The notes beneath the pieces were generated by a model that had not been told where the DNA came from, made no database searches, and was given only the letters and a program-made list of their open reading frames with translations. This document shows, one piece after another, positions 28,873 through 45,170 of a DNA stretch of 64,000 nt. Position 1 is the stretch's first letter. Every line of letters begins with the position of its first letter. The stretch covers positions 3,803,591 to 3,867,590 of the forward strand of contig NZ_CP110224.1 of NCBI RefSeq assembly GCF_026013645.1. The letters run 5' to 3'. This DNA comes from Virgibacillus natechei (GTDB taxonomy: Bacteria > Bacillota > Bacilli > Bacillales > Amphibacillaceae). Made by a program: the position numbers and the translations under genes.

Positions 28873-30700
28873 AGTAACCCCTCCGCTTCTCATTCATAAG
28901 CGGTAATGTAAAGAGAATAGTCGTCCCTTTACCTTCTTTGCTCTTTGCCCATATTCTACCGTGCTGTGCTTCGATTATTTCTTTGGAAATGGCTAATCCC
29001 AGACCTGTTCCACCAAGGTTCCTCGTTCTTGCTTTATCTGCCCTGTAAAAGCGTTCAAATATTTTCTCCAGTTTATCATAAGCAATTCCTAGTCCCTGAT
29101 CCTGTACACTCACAAGCAGGTGATGTCTCTGCTTTTCTACTTTTAATCGAATGACTCCACCCTCTGGTGAATATTTGATTGCATTAGATATAACATTATC
29201 GAGTACCTGTGTCATTTTATCCTTATCCAGCCAAACCTCTAACGCACTTTTTGGCAATTGCCTTTGCAAAATAACATGTTCTGGCTTATTCATATCAAAC
29301 CGGTCAATTACCTCGTGAAAATAACGGACGAAATCTGTGCGTTCCATTTGCAGGGCATGATCCTTTGTGTCCATTTTGGAAAGTTGCAGCAGATCATTTA
29401 CCATGCGAATCATCCGTTCTGTTTCATTTTGCGTTACACTTAAGAATTTAGGTGCAATTTCTTTGTCTTGCCATGCACCATCCGTCAAGGCTTCCATATA
29501 GCTTTTCATCGTTGTAAGTGGTGTGCGTAATTCATGTGACACGTTCGATACGAATTCCCGTCGCTCTTGATCGATTCTTTCTTGTTCTGTTACATCCGTA
29601 ATAACAGTAATAAACCCTGTCACTTCATCCTCATCATCAAAAACAGTAGAAAATTCAGCTCGAATTAAGAAATATTGTTCTTCATCACTAAAATCAATAA
29701 TCATGGATCCATTATCTTGTAACTGGGATATATCTACAATTTTATCCTCTAATGGGATGACATCAAGCAAGTATGCACCTATAATATCTTCGGGATTACG
29801 ACCAATTAGCCTGCCAGCTGTCTCATTCATTAACGTTACCGCCCCGGTTCCGTCTGTTGATATAACACCATCAGACATATTAGACAGCACCGAACTAAGC
29901 TTGCGTCTCTCTTCTTCTATTGTTGAATAGGAGTGCTTTAATCGGCTATTTAAGTCATTAAACGTATCCGCCAATTGACCAATCTCATCTTTACTATATA
30001 CATTTACTTTTTGGGTGAAATCTCCCTTAGCCATCGTTTGTGCCTGGCTTCTCATTTCTGAAATTGGTTTTGTAATCGTACGCGCTACTAATATTCCAAT
30101 AAATGCTGAAACGACAATAGCCAGAATCGAACCTCGTAAAAAGATTTCATTGATATTTTGCAGCTGGTCATAAACACCTTCCAGTGACGCTTCTAAATAG
30201 ATCACACCAGCCACATTATCCTCATCGTCAAATAGAGGTACTGCTTGAACATATACCCGGTTTCCAGTTTCCCCGTCCACTACTGTGTTTTCCTGCTGTT
30301 CATCAAGAAAAAGTGCACTTTGCACCATCTCCCTCGTTGTCTTCTTTCCAACTTCGTCTTGACTGAAAACATCATTCGTTCCCAAAATACGGCTTTGACT
30401 ATTAATAACTTGTAAGTTTGTAATATCAGCTGTATCAACATCACTTACTATATTTTGAATTTCTTCCAGCAGTGTTGGCCCCTCATCATCATCTTCACGT
30501 TCCCTATCAAAAGCCTGTTCCAGGTTATATCCCATTAAATCAACTCGACTATTAACGGAATCCTCGAAACTATTTATCAGCTCATCTTCCAATTCTCTGG
30601 TAAAAAATGAACCAATAACTTGGATGGCCACAAGCAATAGTAAAATATAAATGATAATAAATTTTAATTGAATCGAACGAAAAAAACCAACTTTATTCAT
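28868..30700 (-). CDS. walK: Sensor histidine kinase WalK (YycG)
   Basis: 610 residues. Two membrane helices (about 12-34 and 188-208) flank an extracytoplasmic Cache/PAS-like domain; then HAMP (about 209-262), PAS (about 265-370), HisKA with His389 in NVSHELRTPLTT, and an HATPase with NVISNAIKYSPEGG, the DQGLGIA loop and NLGGTGLGLAI. This is the WalK layout. It senses cell-wall status (lipid II/autolysin products) and phosphorylates WalR. ATG 30700 lies eight bases after CAGGAG, five bases into the gap after walR. Confidence 0.96.
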   Translation of the reverse strand: MNKVGFFRSIQLKFIIIYILLLLVAIQVIGSFFTRELEDELINSFEDSVNSRVDLMGYNLEQAFDREREDDDEGPTLLEEIQNIVSDVDTADITNLQVINSQSRILGTNDVFSQDEVGKKTTREMVQSALFLDEQQENTVVDGETGNRVYVQAVPLFDDEDNVAGVIYLEASLEGVYDQLQNINEIFLRGSILAIVVSAFIGILVARTITKPISEMRSQAQTMAKGDFTQKVNVYSKDEIGQLADTFNDLNSRLKHSYSTIEEERRKLSSVLSNMSDGVISTDGTGAVTLMNETAGRLIGRNPEDIIGAYLLDVIPLEDKIVDISQLQDNGSMIIDFSDEEQYFLIRAEFSTVFDDEDEVTGFITVITDVTEQERIDQERREFVSNVSHELRTPLTTMKSYMEALTDGAWQDKEIAPKFLSVTQNETERMIRMVNDLLQLSKMDTKDHALQMERTDFVRYFHEVIDRFDMNKPEHVILQRQLPKSALEVWLDKDKMTQVLDNVISNAIKYSPEGGVIRLKVEKQRHHLLVSVQDQGLGIAYDKLEKIFERFYRADKARTRNLGGTGLGLAISKEIIEAQHGRIWAKSKEGKGTTILFTLPLMNEKRRGYY

Positions 30701-30705
30701 CACAA

Positions 30706-31407
30706 CTACTCCTGATCAGGATTACGTAAATAATAGCCAACTCCTCGACGCGTAACAATCCACATCGGGGTACTTGGAGTCTCCTCAATTTTCTCACGAA
30801 GTCTTCTTACCGTTACATCCACTGTACGTACATCCCCAAAATAATCATAACCCCATACAATTTCAAGTAAGTGTTCGCGTGTCATAACCTGACCAATATG
30901 ACGTGCTAAGTAATGCAATAATTCGAACTCGCGATGCGTCAACTCAATCTCAACGCCATTTCTTGAAACAACATACGCATCTGGATGAACGATGAGAGAT
31001 CCGATAACAATATCTTTCGTTGCCCTCACCGTATCATCTGGAACCTCTTGTCTGCGCAGGTTCGCTTTTACTCGTGCAATCAACTCCCGATTACTAAATG
31101 GCTTTGTCACATAGTCATCTGCACCAAGCTCCAGACCTAATACTTTATCAATTTCTGTATCCTTCGCTGTCAACATAATAATCGGCATCGATTGTGTCTT
31201 ACGAATCTCGCGGCATACTTCATTTCCATCTCTATTTGGTAACATAATATCTAATAAAATTAACTCAGGTTTCTCCGATTCAGCAAGCGAAATAGCCTCA
31301 TCTCCATCATAAGCTAATACGACTTCATATCCTTCTTTTTCTAAATTGAATTTTAATATATCTGCGATTGGCTGTTCATCATCTACAACTAAAATTTTCT
31401 GACTCAT
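30706..31407 (-). CDS. walR: Response regulator WalR (YycF)
   Basis: 233 residues. Receiver domain with the phospho-acceptor Asp53 ([11 protein letters not shown]) and K in [20 protein letters not shown]; OmpR/PhoB winged helix from about 130, including [14 protein letters not shown] and the RRGVGYYL end. WalR controls autolysin and wall-metabolism genes and is essential in most Firmicutes. First gene of walRKHIJ-htrA. Its upstream region runs into the tandem array beginning at about 31532. Confidence 0.97.
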
Positions 31408-31626
31408 AATGCCACATCCTTTTTTTGCATTGCTTGTTTCTATTTTATCGTACTTTGGGTTAAATGTCTTGGGTTGTCATTGATTGTTTTACGTTTTAGT
31501 TTAAGGTAATGGGTGACTTCCCACTATATTTGAGTATGAGCGAGCGGGAGGGTGGTTCACTCGAGCGAGAGAGGGAGTCACTCGAGCGACAGGAGATTCT
31601 ACTCGAGCGAGAGAGGGAGTTTTTAA

Positions 31627-32275
31627 CTTACAAATACGTGGTCTAACTCCACCGTCTTTAGACGGTATCCGCTTTTAGCCTTATCCTTAAATGTTCATAC
31701 TTGAAGTATGAGGTGATTAGTATGGACGGATATCGAAAAAGTGGTCATGCAGTGTATGATATCAAGTATCACGTAATATGGGTAACAAAATATAGATATA
31801 AGGTATTGCGGGGGCACATAGCAGTAAGGACAAGGGAATTGATTAGACAGGGTTGTGAAGCAAGAGGAATTACAATTTTGCAAGGAAGTGTCGGTAAAGA
31901 CCATATTCACTTATTGTTATCCTGCCCGCCAAGTATTGCTCCAAGTAAAGTTTTGCAGTATCTAAAAGGGAGATCATCAAGATTATTACAGGATGAATTT
32001 CCAGAACTCAAAAAGCGCTATTGGGGTCAGCATTTGTGGGCAAGAGGATACTTTTGCGCCACAGTTGGAACGGTAACAGATGAGATAATAAGAAATTATA
32101 TAGCCAATCAATTCAATGAAGGCAAGGACGACATATTCAAGATTGAAGAATGAGTTTAGTCAAATTTTGAATATGCTTTAGCTTAAGGACTTTGAGCAGG
32201 ACTTCAGCCTGAAAAGCGACTTTAGTCGCCGACATTTATGTCCAAATCCACCTGCTTTAGCAGGTGGTCGTTTAA
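31627..32275 (+). mobile_element. IS200-type insertion sequence (tnpA only) inside the tandem array
   Basis: About 649 bp. Removing it rejoins the array exactly: GGGAGTTTTTAA on the left with GCTTGGTGCTCG on the right, as in every other unit, so both ends are known to within the TTTAA shared by target and right end. The left end has an ACCGTCTTTAGACGGT hairpin (31651-31666), the right end CCACCTGCTTTAGCAGGTGG (32249-32268) plus GCGACTTTAGTCGC. No target duplication, as expected for the single-strand transposition of this family. Confidence 0.92.
31722..32153 (+). CDS. tnpA: IS200/IS605 family transposase TnpA (Y1 HUH)
   Basis: 143 residues from ATG 31722 (AGGTGA upstream). HUH motif H61-I-H63 in GKDHIHLLLSCPP and the catalytic tyrosine near Y126 (IIRNYIANQF) are both present, as is the KYHVIWVTKYRYKVL start typical of IS200 transposases. 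Acts on single-stranded DNA hairpin ends. Intact, so probably functional; possibly able to move the tnpB-only element at 22 kb if the end sequences are compatible. Confidence 0.95.
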   Translation: MDGYRKSGHAVYDIKYHVIWVTKYRYKVLRGHIAVRTRELIRQGCEARGITILQGSVGKDHIHLLLSCPPSIAPSKVLQYLKGRSSRLLQDEFPELKKRYWGQHLWARGYFCATVGTVTDEIIRNYIANQFNEGKDDIFKIEE

Positions 32276-33203
32276 GCTTGGTGCTCGAACCAGAGGTGGT
32301 CTTGCTCGACCTGGGGATGCTGGCGCTCGAACCTGGGATGCTCCCGCGCGAGCGAGCGGGAGGATGGTTGACTCGAGCGGGAGAGCGACTCACTCGAGCG
32401 ACAGGTGATTCTACTCGAGCGAGAGAGGGAGTTTTTAAGCTTGGTGCTCGAACCAGAGGTGGTCTTGCTCGACCTGGGGATGCTGGCGCTCGAACCTGGG
32501 ATGCTCCCGCGCGAGCGAGCCGGAGGATGGTTGACTCGAGCGGGAGAGCGACTCACTCGAGCGACAGGAGATTCTACTCGAGCGAGAGAGGGAGTTTTTA
32601 AGCTTGGTGCTCGACACAGAGGTGGTCTTGCTCGACCTGGGGATGCTGGCGCTCGAACCTGGGATACTCCCGCGCGAGCGAGCCGGAGGATGGTTGACTC
32701 GAGCGGGAGAGCGACTCACTCGAGCGACAGGAGATTCTACTCGAGCGAGAGAGGGAGTTTTTAAGCTTGGTGCTCGAACCAGAGGTGGTCTTGCTCGACC
32801 TGGGGATGCTGGCGCTCGAACCTGGGATGCTCCCGCGCGAGCGAGCGGGAGGATGGTTGACTCGAGCGAGAGAGCGACTCACTCGAGCGACAGGAGATTC
32901 TACTCGAGCGAGAGAGGGAGTTTTTAAGCTTGGTGCTCGAACCAGAGGTGGTCTTGCTCGACCTGGGGATGCTGGCGCTCGAACCTGGGATGCTCCCGCG
33001 CGAGCGAGCGGGAGGGTGGTTGACTCGAGCGGGAGAGCGACTCACTCGAGCGACAGGAGATTCTACTCGAGCGAGAGAGGGAGTTTTTAAGCTTGGTGCT
33101 CGAACCAGAGGTGGTCTTGCTCGACCTGGGGATGCTGGCGCTCGAACCTGGGATGCTCCCGCTCGACCTAAAGAGGCTCCCGCTCGATCCGACATGCTCC
33201 TCT

Positions 33204-33556
33204 CCTGGTCCCGCTAAAATTGCTTCTCATCAATGCGAATGTAACGATTTTACTAGTTGGCATTTAGTTAATGAAGGGCCGGTTATAGGGAAAAAGAAAA
33301 TTCAAGCGTTCCTTCCTGATTTAGGTCGACACTCTCCCGATCCAGTTATAGGTTATAATAATATTAGAAAACTTGGTTGTCACCAAGCCTTTAGGTGACA
33401 GCCCTAGTTGCACTTATGCAGTAAGAAAGTTTTTATACTTTTTTAACTGCAAATAAAGAGCCATATGACCGCAGCGGCCGTCCCGTCGAAAACATATAAA
33501 TTTATTTTCTGATAAATGGAAGAAAAGAGTGGAATTTAAGCTGCTATTTAACCAAT
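33204..33556. other. Intergenic region without a gene
   Basis: Between the tandem array and the purA terminator. Apart from the double-hairpin repeat it holds a short GC-rich fragment at 33468-33500 (CCGCAGCGGCCGTCCCGTCG) that looks like a remnant of the MITE-like family end. I see no gene. Confidence 0.5.
33361..33460 (+). repeat. Modular double-hairpin repeat, copy 1
   Basis: AGAAAACTTGG, a hairpin TGTCACC/GGTGACA (33379-33400), then AGTTGCACTTATGCAG and a second hairpin ending near ACTGC (33450). It aligns along about 90 bases with the minus strand of 62513-62602, where the first stem is TATCGCC/GGCGATA: two base pairs differ and both are compensated. Function unknown. Confidence 0.75.
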
Positions 33557-33592
33557 AAAAAGAGGCTATCGATGAAGACAGCCTCTTACCAA
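33556..33592 (-). terminator. purA terminator
   Basis: AGAGGCT (33561-33567) pairs with AGCCTCT (33580-33586); minus-strand T-tail TTTTTATTGG. Immediately follows the purA stop. Confidence 0.85.
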
Positions 33593-34882
33593 TTAGTCTC
33601 TATAAACACTTCGTACAACATTCGTCTGCGAGCGATCTGGCCCGACAGAAAATACAGAAAGCGGAATTTCCGTTAATTGTGAAATACGCTCTAAATAATG
33701 GCGCGCATTTTCCGGAAGTTCATGCAGGTTTTTCACATGTGTAATGTCTTCTGTCCAGCCGGGCATTTCCTCATATACCGGCTCACATTCTGCTAAAACG
33801 GATAAACTTGCCGGAAACTCATTCATTATTTCACCTTTATAGCGATAAGCCACACAGATTCTCAAATTTTCTATTCCTGTTAAGACATCCAATGAATTTA
33901 ATGATAAATCCGTAATTCCACTCACGCGACGTGCATGACGAACGACCACACTATCAAACCAGCCGACACGACGAGGTCTTCCTGTTGTTGTTCCGTACTC
34001 ACGCCCGACTTCCCGAATTTGCTCACCTACTTCATCATCCAGTTCTGTTGGAAAAGGGCCATCACCAACACGGGTTGTATATGCTTTAGACACACCTACA
34101 ACATGATTGATTTTCGATGGGCCTACACCAGACCCAATTGTCACACCACCTGCAACCGGGTTGGACGATGTAACAAATGGATATGTTCCCTGATCGATAT
34201 CAAGCATAACACCTTGCGCCCCTTCAAATAAGACGCGACGGCCATCATCTAGTGCATCATTTAAAACAACCGATGTATCATAAACGTACTGTGCCATTTG
34301 CTGGCCATATTCATAGTACTCTTCTAAAATATCTTCTACCTTGATCGGGTCTACCTCATATACTTTTTCAAATAAGCGGTTTTTCTCTTTTAAATTCTGC
34401 TCCAATTTCGTGCGAAAGGCTTCTTTATCGAGCAGGTCGGCAATTCGAATTCCACTACGTGCGGCTTTATCCATATATGCAGGTCCGATGCCTTTTTTCG
34501 TTGTACCGATTTTATTATCGCCCTTTTCATCTTCCTGTAAAATATCCAATTGCAGGTGATAAGGCAAAATCACATGTGCGCGGTTACTGATGCGCAGATT
34601 ATCGGTCGAAATATTACGTTCATGCAGGTAGGCAACCTCCTCGACAAATGCTTTTGGATCAATCACCATACCATTTCCCAACACACAAATTTTATCATCA
34701 AAAAATATGCCAGACGGGATTAAATGCAATTTATACGTTATATCATCAAACTTGATCGTATGCCCAGCGTTGTTTCCCCCTTGATAACGAGCAACAACCT
34801 CGGCATTTTGCGATAAAAAGTCCGTAATCTTCCCTTTCCCTTCATCGCCCCACTGCGTTCCAACTACTACTACTGAGGACAT
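33593..34882 (-). CDS. purA: Adenylosuccinate synthetase
   Basis: 429 residues, normal length. The N-terminal GTP loop [14 protein letters not shown], the NAGHTI motif, [20 protein letters not shown], and the [13 protein letters not shown] stretch are all present. Converts IMP, aspartate and GTP to adenylosuccinate, the first step of AMP synthesis. Single-gene unit with its own promoter, a PurR-type operator upstream, and a terminator. GGAGGTG precedes the ATG. Confidence 0.97.
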
Positions 34883-34935
34883 CGTGCACCTCCACTAATT
34901 TATGTATTATATGATTTTTATTGTTTCCTAGCGTA

Positions 34936-34964
34936 AGTTTATCAATAATGGAGATGTAAGTCAA
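34936..34964 (-). promoter_or_regulatory. purA promoter
   Basis: On the minus strand TTGACT (34964-34959), 17 bases, TAAACT (34941-34936), about 50 bases before the purA start. The -10 is weak. Confidence 0.5.
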
Positions 34965-34968
34965 TTTG

Positions 34969-35012
34969 AAAAGCGAACGTTGTGTGGATATTAATTTTTA
35001 TTGTTCGGTAAA
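34969..35012 (-). promoter_or_regulatory. PurR operator: inverted pair of PurBoxes
   Basis: AAAAGCGAACGTT (34969-34981) and the inverted ATTGTTCGGTAAA (35000-35012) each match the PurBox core CCGAAC with few changes; taken as 14-mers they are 16 bases apart, the spacing known for Bacillus subtilis PurR sites. They lie just upstream of the purA -35 element, the known position for control of purA by PurR and PRPP. Confidence 0.75.
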
Positions 35013-44693: not shown

Positions 44694-45170
44694 TTAAAAT
44701 GGTAAATCATCATCTGATATATCGATAGGCTCTCCATTCGTTTTAAATGGGTCCTCTTGATTTTGGTTCTGATTTTGGTTCTGATTCGGAAACTGATTTC
44801 TATTTTGCTGGAATCCTGATGTGTCTTGTCCCCTATCCGGAGATGAGGCACCTTTTGATTCTAGAAATTGCACACTGTCTGCAACGACTTCTGTTACAAA
44901 TACGGTCTTACCATCTTGTCCTTCAAATGTACGTGATTGAAGACGGCCATCAACACCAATCTGACTACCTTTTTTCATATAGTTGGCAAGGTTTTCAGCC
45001 GGTCTGCGCCACACGACACAGTTAATAAAGTCTGCATCACGTTCACCTTGTTGATTGGTAAATGGTCGATTAACTGCAATGGTAAAATTAGCTACTGCTA
45101 CTCCGTTTGGTGTATAACGTAGATCAGGATCCTTCGTTAACCTGCCAACAAGTACGACACGATTTAACAT
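44694..45170 (-). CDS. ssb: Single-stranded DNA-binding protein
   Basis: 158 residues from ATG 45170 (AAGGAG nine bases upstream; an in-frame GTG lies too close). OB-fold (about 1-110) with [20 protein letters not shown], a low-complexity Q/N-rich linker, and the acidic tip DISDDDLPF that recruits partners such as RecQ, RecG and PriA. Protects ssDNA at the fork. Confidence 0.97.

Follow-up and report, generated by a model that had tools for sequence, protein, structure and literature searches.

Noncoding tandem repeats of constant size, with units of 20–21 or 52 nt, have been described in Bacillus by Subirana & Messeguer (2021; PMC8161180). In the main text of that report, the repeats are said to have 'no sequence conservation' between species and to carry short signals within a species, such as TCGCGG in B. 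weihaiensis, and their function is left unexplained, nucleoid proteins or small RNA being suggested as possibilities. Transcription of the 52-nt satellites in B. coagulans is described there and elsewhere (PMC8161180; PMC8625621). A term search of the main text of PMC8161180 returned neither GCTCGA nor any statement on the leading or lagging strand. Furthermore, in the literature surveyed by title and abstract start, with subscription papers mostly outside reach, nothing was found on the replication direction or a common core of such arrays.

Phased direct repeats of ∼20 bp are also known as parC/ParR-type centromere arrays and plasmid iterons. Polar chromosome motifs that follow replication, namely KOPS, SRS and Chi, are single short sites spread over the whole chromosome, and in alphoid satellite DNA the higher-order units are made up of diverged monomers that retain a short motif, a protein box. 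In eukaryotes, co-evolution has been suggested between centromere satellites and their proteins.

In this study, an array located between walR and purA was analyzed in a 64-kb stretch of DNA (hereafter the window). Its membership of the published 20–21-nt class (PMC8161180) is near certain: the class comprises at least four repeats of 20–21 nt, and the array is built from 21-bp steps in a 163-bp unit with additional steps of 25 and 31–33 bp, its relatives having periods of 21 or 20; its position is intergenic and noncoding, the exception elsewhere being locus L226 in genome G128; and its genome contains several arrays (∼18 sites) with a short common signal, the hexamer GCTCGA being present in 66 of the 72 inner monomers. 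Only 'no sequence conservation', a property that was reported for the class and is not required of its members, does not apply, the core being common across genera and families. As far as the class is described in the main text of PMC8161180, the intergenic position, the many arrays per genome, the within-species short signal, the repeat of two helix turns and the patchy distribution are shared, whereas the recurrence of the core across genera and families, the monomers facing both ways in a 163-bp unit and the replication direction in genus g38 are particular to the present arrays. The 52-nt satellites of the same source are similarly constant in size and dispersed, with short signals present in both forward and reverse form within a repeat, but differ in repeat size and sequence. 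The original prediction knew of no named element of this kind, which holds for this particular sequence within the literature searched but not for the class, described in 2021 (PMC8161180).

Comparison with the other systems is less close. The g38 arrays resemble KOPS, SRS and Chi in a direction that follows replication, but are phased arrays instead of single sites; alphoid satellite shares the higher-order arrangement of diverged monomers and the kept motif, whereas the present arrays are bacterial, short and intergenic and their reader protein is hypothetical. The analogy with iterons and parC that had been drawn for this array is not supported by its context, since it occurs at many sites, has no partition or initiator gene beside it in the window and has no plasmid match. 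A plasmid iteron, which requires a plasmid and an adjacent initiator gene, and a parC-type centromere, which requires an adjacent partition operon, were thus rejected for this chromosomal site with its neighbors WalK, WalR and PurA. A CRISPR array, with repeats of ∼23–50 bp, unique spacers and cas genes, was also rejected, as the fixed part here is 8–11 of 21 bp and Rfam gave no match.

Architecture of the walR–purA array

The array had been predicted to consist of CTCGA-centered blocks repeated every 21 bp, with 25-bp steps at fixed places, that form five nearly identical 163-bp units. Tandem Repeats Finder recovered both periods, with 5.5 copies of the 163-bp unit at 98% matches and 0% indels in the main array (Table 1) and a period of 21 bp in a separate left piece (31557–31620). 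Across the five full copies, seven of the 163 columns are variable. In the hexamer map, the main array advances in steps of 21, 21, 46, 21, 21 and ∼31–33 bp, in which the 46-bp step is the sum of 25 and 21. Forward GCTCGA monomers are followed by reverse-complement TCGAGC monomers and an AT-rich joint of ∼31–33 bp; each 163-bp unit is therefore composed of monomers facing both ways, contrary to the uniform block direction implied earlier, and the inverted units of the window have no net direction.

The description of the array as GC-rich and noncoding was borne out by a GC content of 0.60–0.61, compared with 0.386 for the whole window, and by the ORFs inside it, which are incidental; two were tested and neither has a Pfam family. 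Its placement between walR (yycF) and purA is likewise confirmed by the profile matches in Table 1. No match was obtained in an Rfam search of window positions 30000–35000, and two units folded no better than shuffled sequences (z = −1.41 and −0.52), which favors a role at the DNA level. Plasmid and phage collections contained no match to the array, and an origin from either was rejected. At window positions 44758–44786 there is a short 12-bp tandem repeat of 2.4 copies.

Table 1. Features of the array and its surroundings (window coordinates)
Feature	Position	Strand	Evidence
walR (yycF), left neighbor	30706..31407	-	NF040534, E=4e-126
Left array piece: three reversed TCGAGC monomers and unit end, truncated by insertion element	31540..31623	.	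Tandem Repeats Finder, hexamer map
IS200/IS605-type insertion element within array, ends inferred from other copies	31624..32276	+	Three further genome copies
Y1 transposase gene of the IS200/IS605 element	31701..32153	+	PF01797, E=7.3e-44; NF033573 transpos_IS200, E=2.7e-45
Main array, 5.5 x 163-bp higher-order unit	32271..33166	.	Tandem Repeats Finder
Forward GCTCGA monomers of the first unit, in 21-bp steps	32283..32344	+	Hexamer map
First unit, reversed monomers (TCGAGC on + strand), 21-bp steps	32372..32433	-	Hexamer map
Array right end, forward monomers, 21-bp steps	33119..33200	+	Tandem Repeats Finder 33119-33187; hexamer map to 33187
AT-rich flank, duplicated with array end elsewhere in genome	33209..33309	.	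89% match to window genome 3135362-3135463
purA, right neighbor	33593..34882	-	NF002223, E=1.5e-197; TIGR00184

The interval 31532–33203, originally assigned to the array as a whole, in fact spans two array pieces separated by an insertion element, which its Y1 transposase assigns to the IS200/IS605 class. Further copies are found in the same genome at 3092949–3093604 (100%), 967702–968356 (98%) and 3225967–3226598 (87%), and the element was inserted into an already existing array. Window positions 32905–33309 match positions 3137419–3137829 of the genome at 89%, and this recurrence at 3.137 Mb of the right end of the array with 100 bp of flank suggests that arrays are copied along with their flank. 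A sequence piece common to four array borders (L201, L204, L206 and L212) is partly readable as MSIRYDQEFKQ, presumably resembling the start of an IS3-type transposase, and arrays may have been copied together with the piece that encodes it. In addition, a dispersed ∼95-bp element with the inverted repeat GTTGTCACC...GGTGACAGCC is located at window positions 33351–33465; at least 14 further copies are present in the window genome, and congeners and other genera also contain copies. Its strand follows replication in 14 of the 15 listed copies (minus on the right arm and plus on the left arm, with the exception at 1564882); such a strand bias is expected from single-strand transposition.

Core, register and distribution

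The 20–21-bp monomer combines a fixed core, read as TCGNGCGA on one strand and as TCGCNCGA on the opposite one, with a free spacer, and is repeated in register; GCTCGA falls within the A form of the core. The consensus from 24 genomes goes past the search hexamer, with TCGCTCGANTT in most f1 genomes, and the fixed part covers 8–11 bp of 21. Adjacent monomers were compared in 261 pairs whose spacers are unrelated (at least five of the nine spacer columns different): the spacer columns differ in 50.6–80.5% of pairs and the hexamer columns in 0.4–11.9%, the latter being biased downwards because the lattice was anchored on exact hexamers; the unbiased columns outside the hexamer differ in 14.2% (+7), 25.3% (+8) and 28.4% (−1). 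A core that is common across genera and families at a spacing of 20–21 bp, with unrelated adjacent spacers, is a new observation. Same-strand steps of up to 100 bp are 21 bp in 730 of 972 cases and 21, 42, 63 or 84 bp in 841, with 25 steps of 20 bp and nine of 22 bp, although this register is partly built in, because the search for loci itself used a 21-bp pattern. Since the register and core are kept while neighboring spacers are unrelated, the protein-binding array of the original prediction stays plausible, apart from its iteron and parC analogy.

Whether other copies exist in the genome had been raised as a check, and ∼18 array sites were found, i.e. ∼17 besides the window, one of the 18 being a 46-bp match only. 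The pair pattern GCTCGA-N15-GCTCGA occurs 66 times in the forward and 70 times in the reverse direction, compared with 1 and 0 for a backward-read control, and a longer pattern of four units, in which 24 bases are fixed, gives 17 matches (control 0). The alternating forward and reversed build recurs in these other arrays with different spacers. The window array is thus one of a dispersed family of noncoding satellites at many intergenic sites, amplified here as a 163-bp unit.

A special place 31 kb from oriC, as originally supposed, was rejected because of the ∼17 sites elsewhere, and the site itself is short in a congener. The other sites lie at 0.58–1.27 and 2.86–3.84 Mb of the 3.87-Mb genome, with none between 1.27 and 2.86 Mb around the terminus (the skew changes within 1.868–1.940 Mb). 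For the largest gap, p is 0.0019 with all 18 sites and 0.022 after neighbors are merged to 13, which gives only a hint of exclusion from the terminus; the A-core arrays of G132, which sit near its origin on one arm, point to regional clustering. The matching flanks of the walR–purA site are 194 bp apart in the congener G001 and 549 bp apart in G002, compared with 2065 bp here, and the window array is absent at this site in G001. The purA-side loci of 11 relatives (L373–L383, extending 1.5 kb past the purA match) contained no run of cores. Recent amplification, also proposed originally, accounts for the 163-bp unit with its 98% identity but not for a core and period that recur in other genera.

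Beyond this genome, the pair pattern matches in 56 of 146 family genomes, single matches being near the control level. At least ten matches occur in 20 of the 146 genomes and 12 of 46 genera, one of these genomes (G033) also having seven control matches; such a patchy distribution implies a role that is not essential in the family. In the order, the four-unit pattern is found in 15 of 397 genomes, 11 of 136 genera and eight families (G283 and G351 also have control matches), and a free-spacing pattern matches in 63 of 397, many of the matches being isolated and some in genomes with control matches. The genomes richest in arrays among those met are G246 and G392, both of genus g111 in another family (f29), where a three-unit pattern with the core GCTCGAT has 348 and 371 matches, respectively, at a period of 20 (control 0). 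Counts based on GCTCGA are lower bounds, as G135 has none by this motif but 121 matches with the core TCGCGCG, so that its use as an array-free congener was rejected.

Most arrays are located between genes. The exception, L226 1046–1117, lies in frame within an 865-codon gene of G128, before a family-2 glycosyltransferase domain (residues 421–533), and translates as NSSEEAA-like repeats. A gene traveling with the arrays was rejected, as most families represented among the 445 flanking proteins are widespread, e.g. ABC ATPases. A NERD-domain protein family accounts for six of these 445 and lies beside arrays in G000 (the window genome), G001, G054, G056, G114 and G213; an example is L207 6239–7177, and the domain was confirmed in one family member.

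Core letter and direction in genus g38

A genome-wide scan found TCGNGCG arrays in 11 of the 12 g38 genomes. At one orthologous gap, G114 has nine A cores, G100 has a run of C cores and G128 has three cores, C, C and T, the C core being a palindrome and hence counted on both strands; inspection by eye showed CGTGCGA repeats in G138. No TCGNGCG run was found at the site orthologous to the G114 array in G135, G039, G084, G069 or G107. At L347 (G124), a 21-bp repeat of a different motif, GTGGGAGAGA, was seen by eye in the orthologous gap. Among the matches listed, to which the letters of the remaining g38 genomes also refer, the core letter is C in all 25 of G107 and in every one of G135 (part of 121), A in nearly all 66 matches of G132, and A, C and T in G128. 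A single letter is used in 49 of the 61 A/T-core arrays. The variable core base thus differs between arrays and species and is mostly uniform within an array, which is also new.

A further new finding is that the A/T-core arrays of g38 orient along replication. When all fetched g38 loci were scored by TCGWGCG, TCGWGCGA was on the leading strand, as called from local GC skew and gene strand, in 57 of 57 scorable arrays from seven species and on the lagging strand in none (61 arrays in total, four unscorable). Because arrays within one genome are related, the 57 do not count as independent observations; at the species level the result is 7/7 (sign test, p = 0.016). The core strand is slightly C-rich (skew −0.061), contrary to the genome skew of the leading strand, and base skew is therefore no explanation. 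Scored by GCTCGA in five g38 genomes, 33 arrays were opposite to the leading strand, none was the same and four were without a call. A prospective set of 20 loci, seven of them without a strict array, gave 14 arrays opposite by GCTCGA, as predicted, and one the same (L363 in G138); this exception holds T-core arrays and agrees with the leading strand under TCGWGCG scoring. Over all genomes, 65 arrays were opposite and 28 the same by GCTCGA, with 14 not called, and the direction is thus lineage-specific and mixed outside g38: the opposite/same counts were 1/5 in G042, 10/4 in G056 and 7/0 in G003, with outgroups mostly the same.

The genes next to 54 g38 arrays are both on the core strand in 32 cases, convergent in 16, divergent in three and both opposite in three. 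Divergent gaps are underrepresented (3/54 versus 68/381 neighboring pairs, p = 0.018), and convergent gaps amount to 16/54 versus 69/381 (p = 0.065). Of the 54 arrays, 48 have an upstream gene that points at the array and shares its core strand; replication is a better predictor of direction than this gene.

Possible explanations and meaning

The preferred reading, with a probability of roughly one half, is a satellite whose core is read by a DNA-binding factor and whose expansion or maintenance is linked to replication. A sequence-specific factor would read successive cores on the same helical face, by which the core and the two-turn spacing would be kept; new arrays would arise when array pieces are copied with some flank and then grow by unequal exchange; and in g38 the core direction would be set by replication, through either a factor that acts with the fork or copying via single-stranded DNA. 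What is kept, namely the core and the two-turn register, suits such a reader, and the g38 direction suits fork-linked copying. A DNA-organizing binding array, with odds near even, is favored as the role over a gene-control site. Against the preferred reading stand the patchy distribution, the mixed direction outside g38 and the window units that face both ways. A more specific and tentative version is a replication-oriented satellite, whose phased 8-bp cores would be binding sites for a predicted fork-tracking factor, with the core letter changing together with the factor in each species; the inverted 163-bp unit of the window would be the two-sided version of the site.

The main rival, and a real possibility, is a selfish or neutral satellite that has no reader and spreads by slippage, unequal exchange, template switching at forks and copying to intergenic sites, the core and period being inherited by descent and homogenization. 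Such a satellite is consistent with the patchy distribution, the empty or short orthologous sites, the copying with flank, the avoidance of promoter-side gaps by g38 arrays (the divergent pairs above) and the fork-linked direction, and the array inside the glycosyltransferase frame of G128 equally fits a spreading, partly neutral element; yet homogenization alone should move the spacer with the core, and adjacent monomers share the core only. A single-strand mobile element of the HUH/Y1 type, or a non-autonomous relative, which moves on the lagging-strand template and thereby sets the direction, is unlikely. It would explain the strict g38 direction and has a parallel in the similar strand bias of the ∼95-bp element of the window genome, but no common terminal hairpins were seen in uniform g38 arrays, no transposase recurs beside many arrays among the 445 flanking proteins, and the IS200/IS605 element of the window was inserted into the array, its other matched copies lying outside it.

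Similarly improbable is a satellite transcribed as a small RNA or protein sponge, as was proposed for the 52-nt class by its authors, in whose account (PMC8161180) and in PMC8625621 these repeats are transcribed in B. coagulans. The upstream genes of g38 that read toward the array would agree with this, but the replication direction holds in all 57 scorable arrays, even where the upstream gene disagrees (6/54), and the folding of the two units tested and the Rfam result for window positions 30000–35000 are against it. Least probable of all is a remnant of a coding heptad repeat, with 21 bp as seven codons: the one in-frame array of G128 is of this form, but the frame is broken by the 163-bp unit, by the 20- and 22-bp steps and by the period of 20 in g111, and most arrays are intergenic.

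The class was published, in the main text of PMC8161180, as a riddle of constant size, changing sequence and unexplained function. The common core, its one-letter turnover between species and arrays and the strict g38 direction offer concrete handles on it, namely a bait for pull-down, a predicted core-letter preference for the factor of each species and a way to test fork-linked copying. A reader protein, if there is one, would represent a new DNA-organizing or replication-linked factor in Bacillota; if there is none, the arrays would be a clean case of bacterial selfish satellite DNA.
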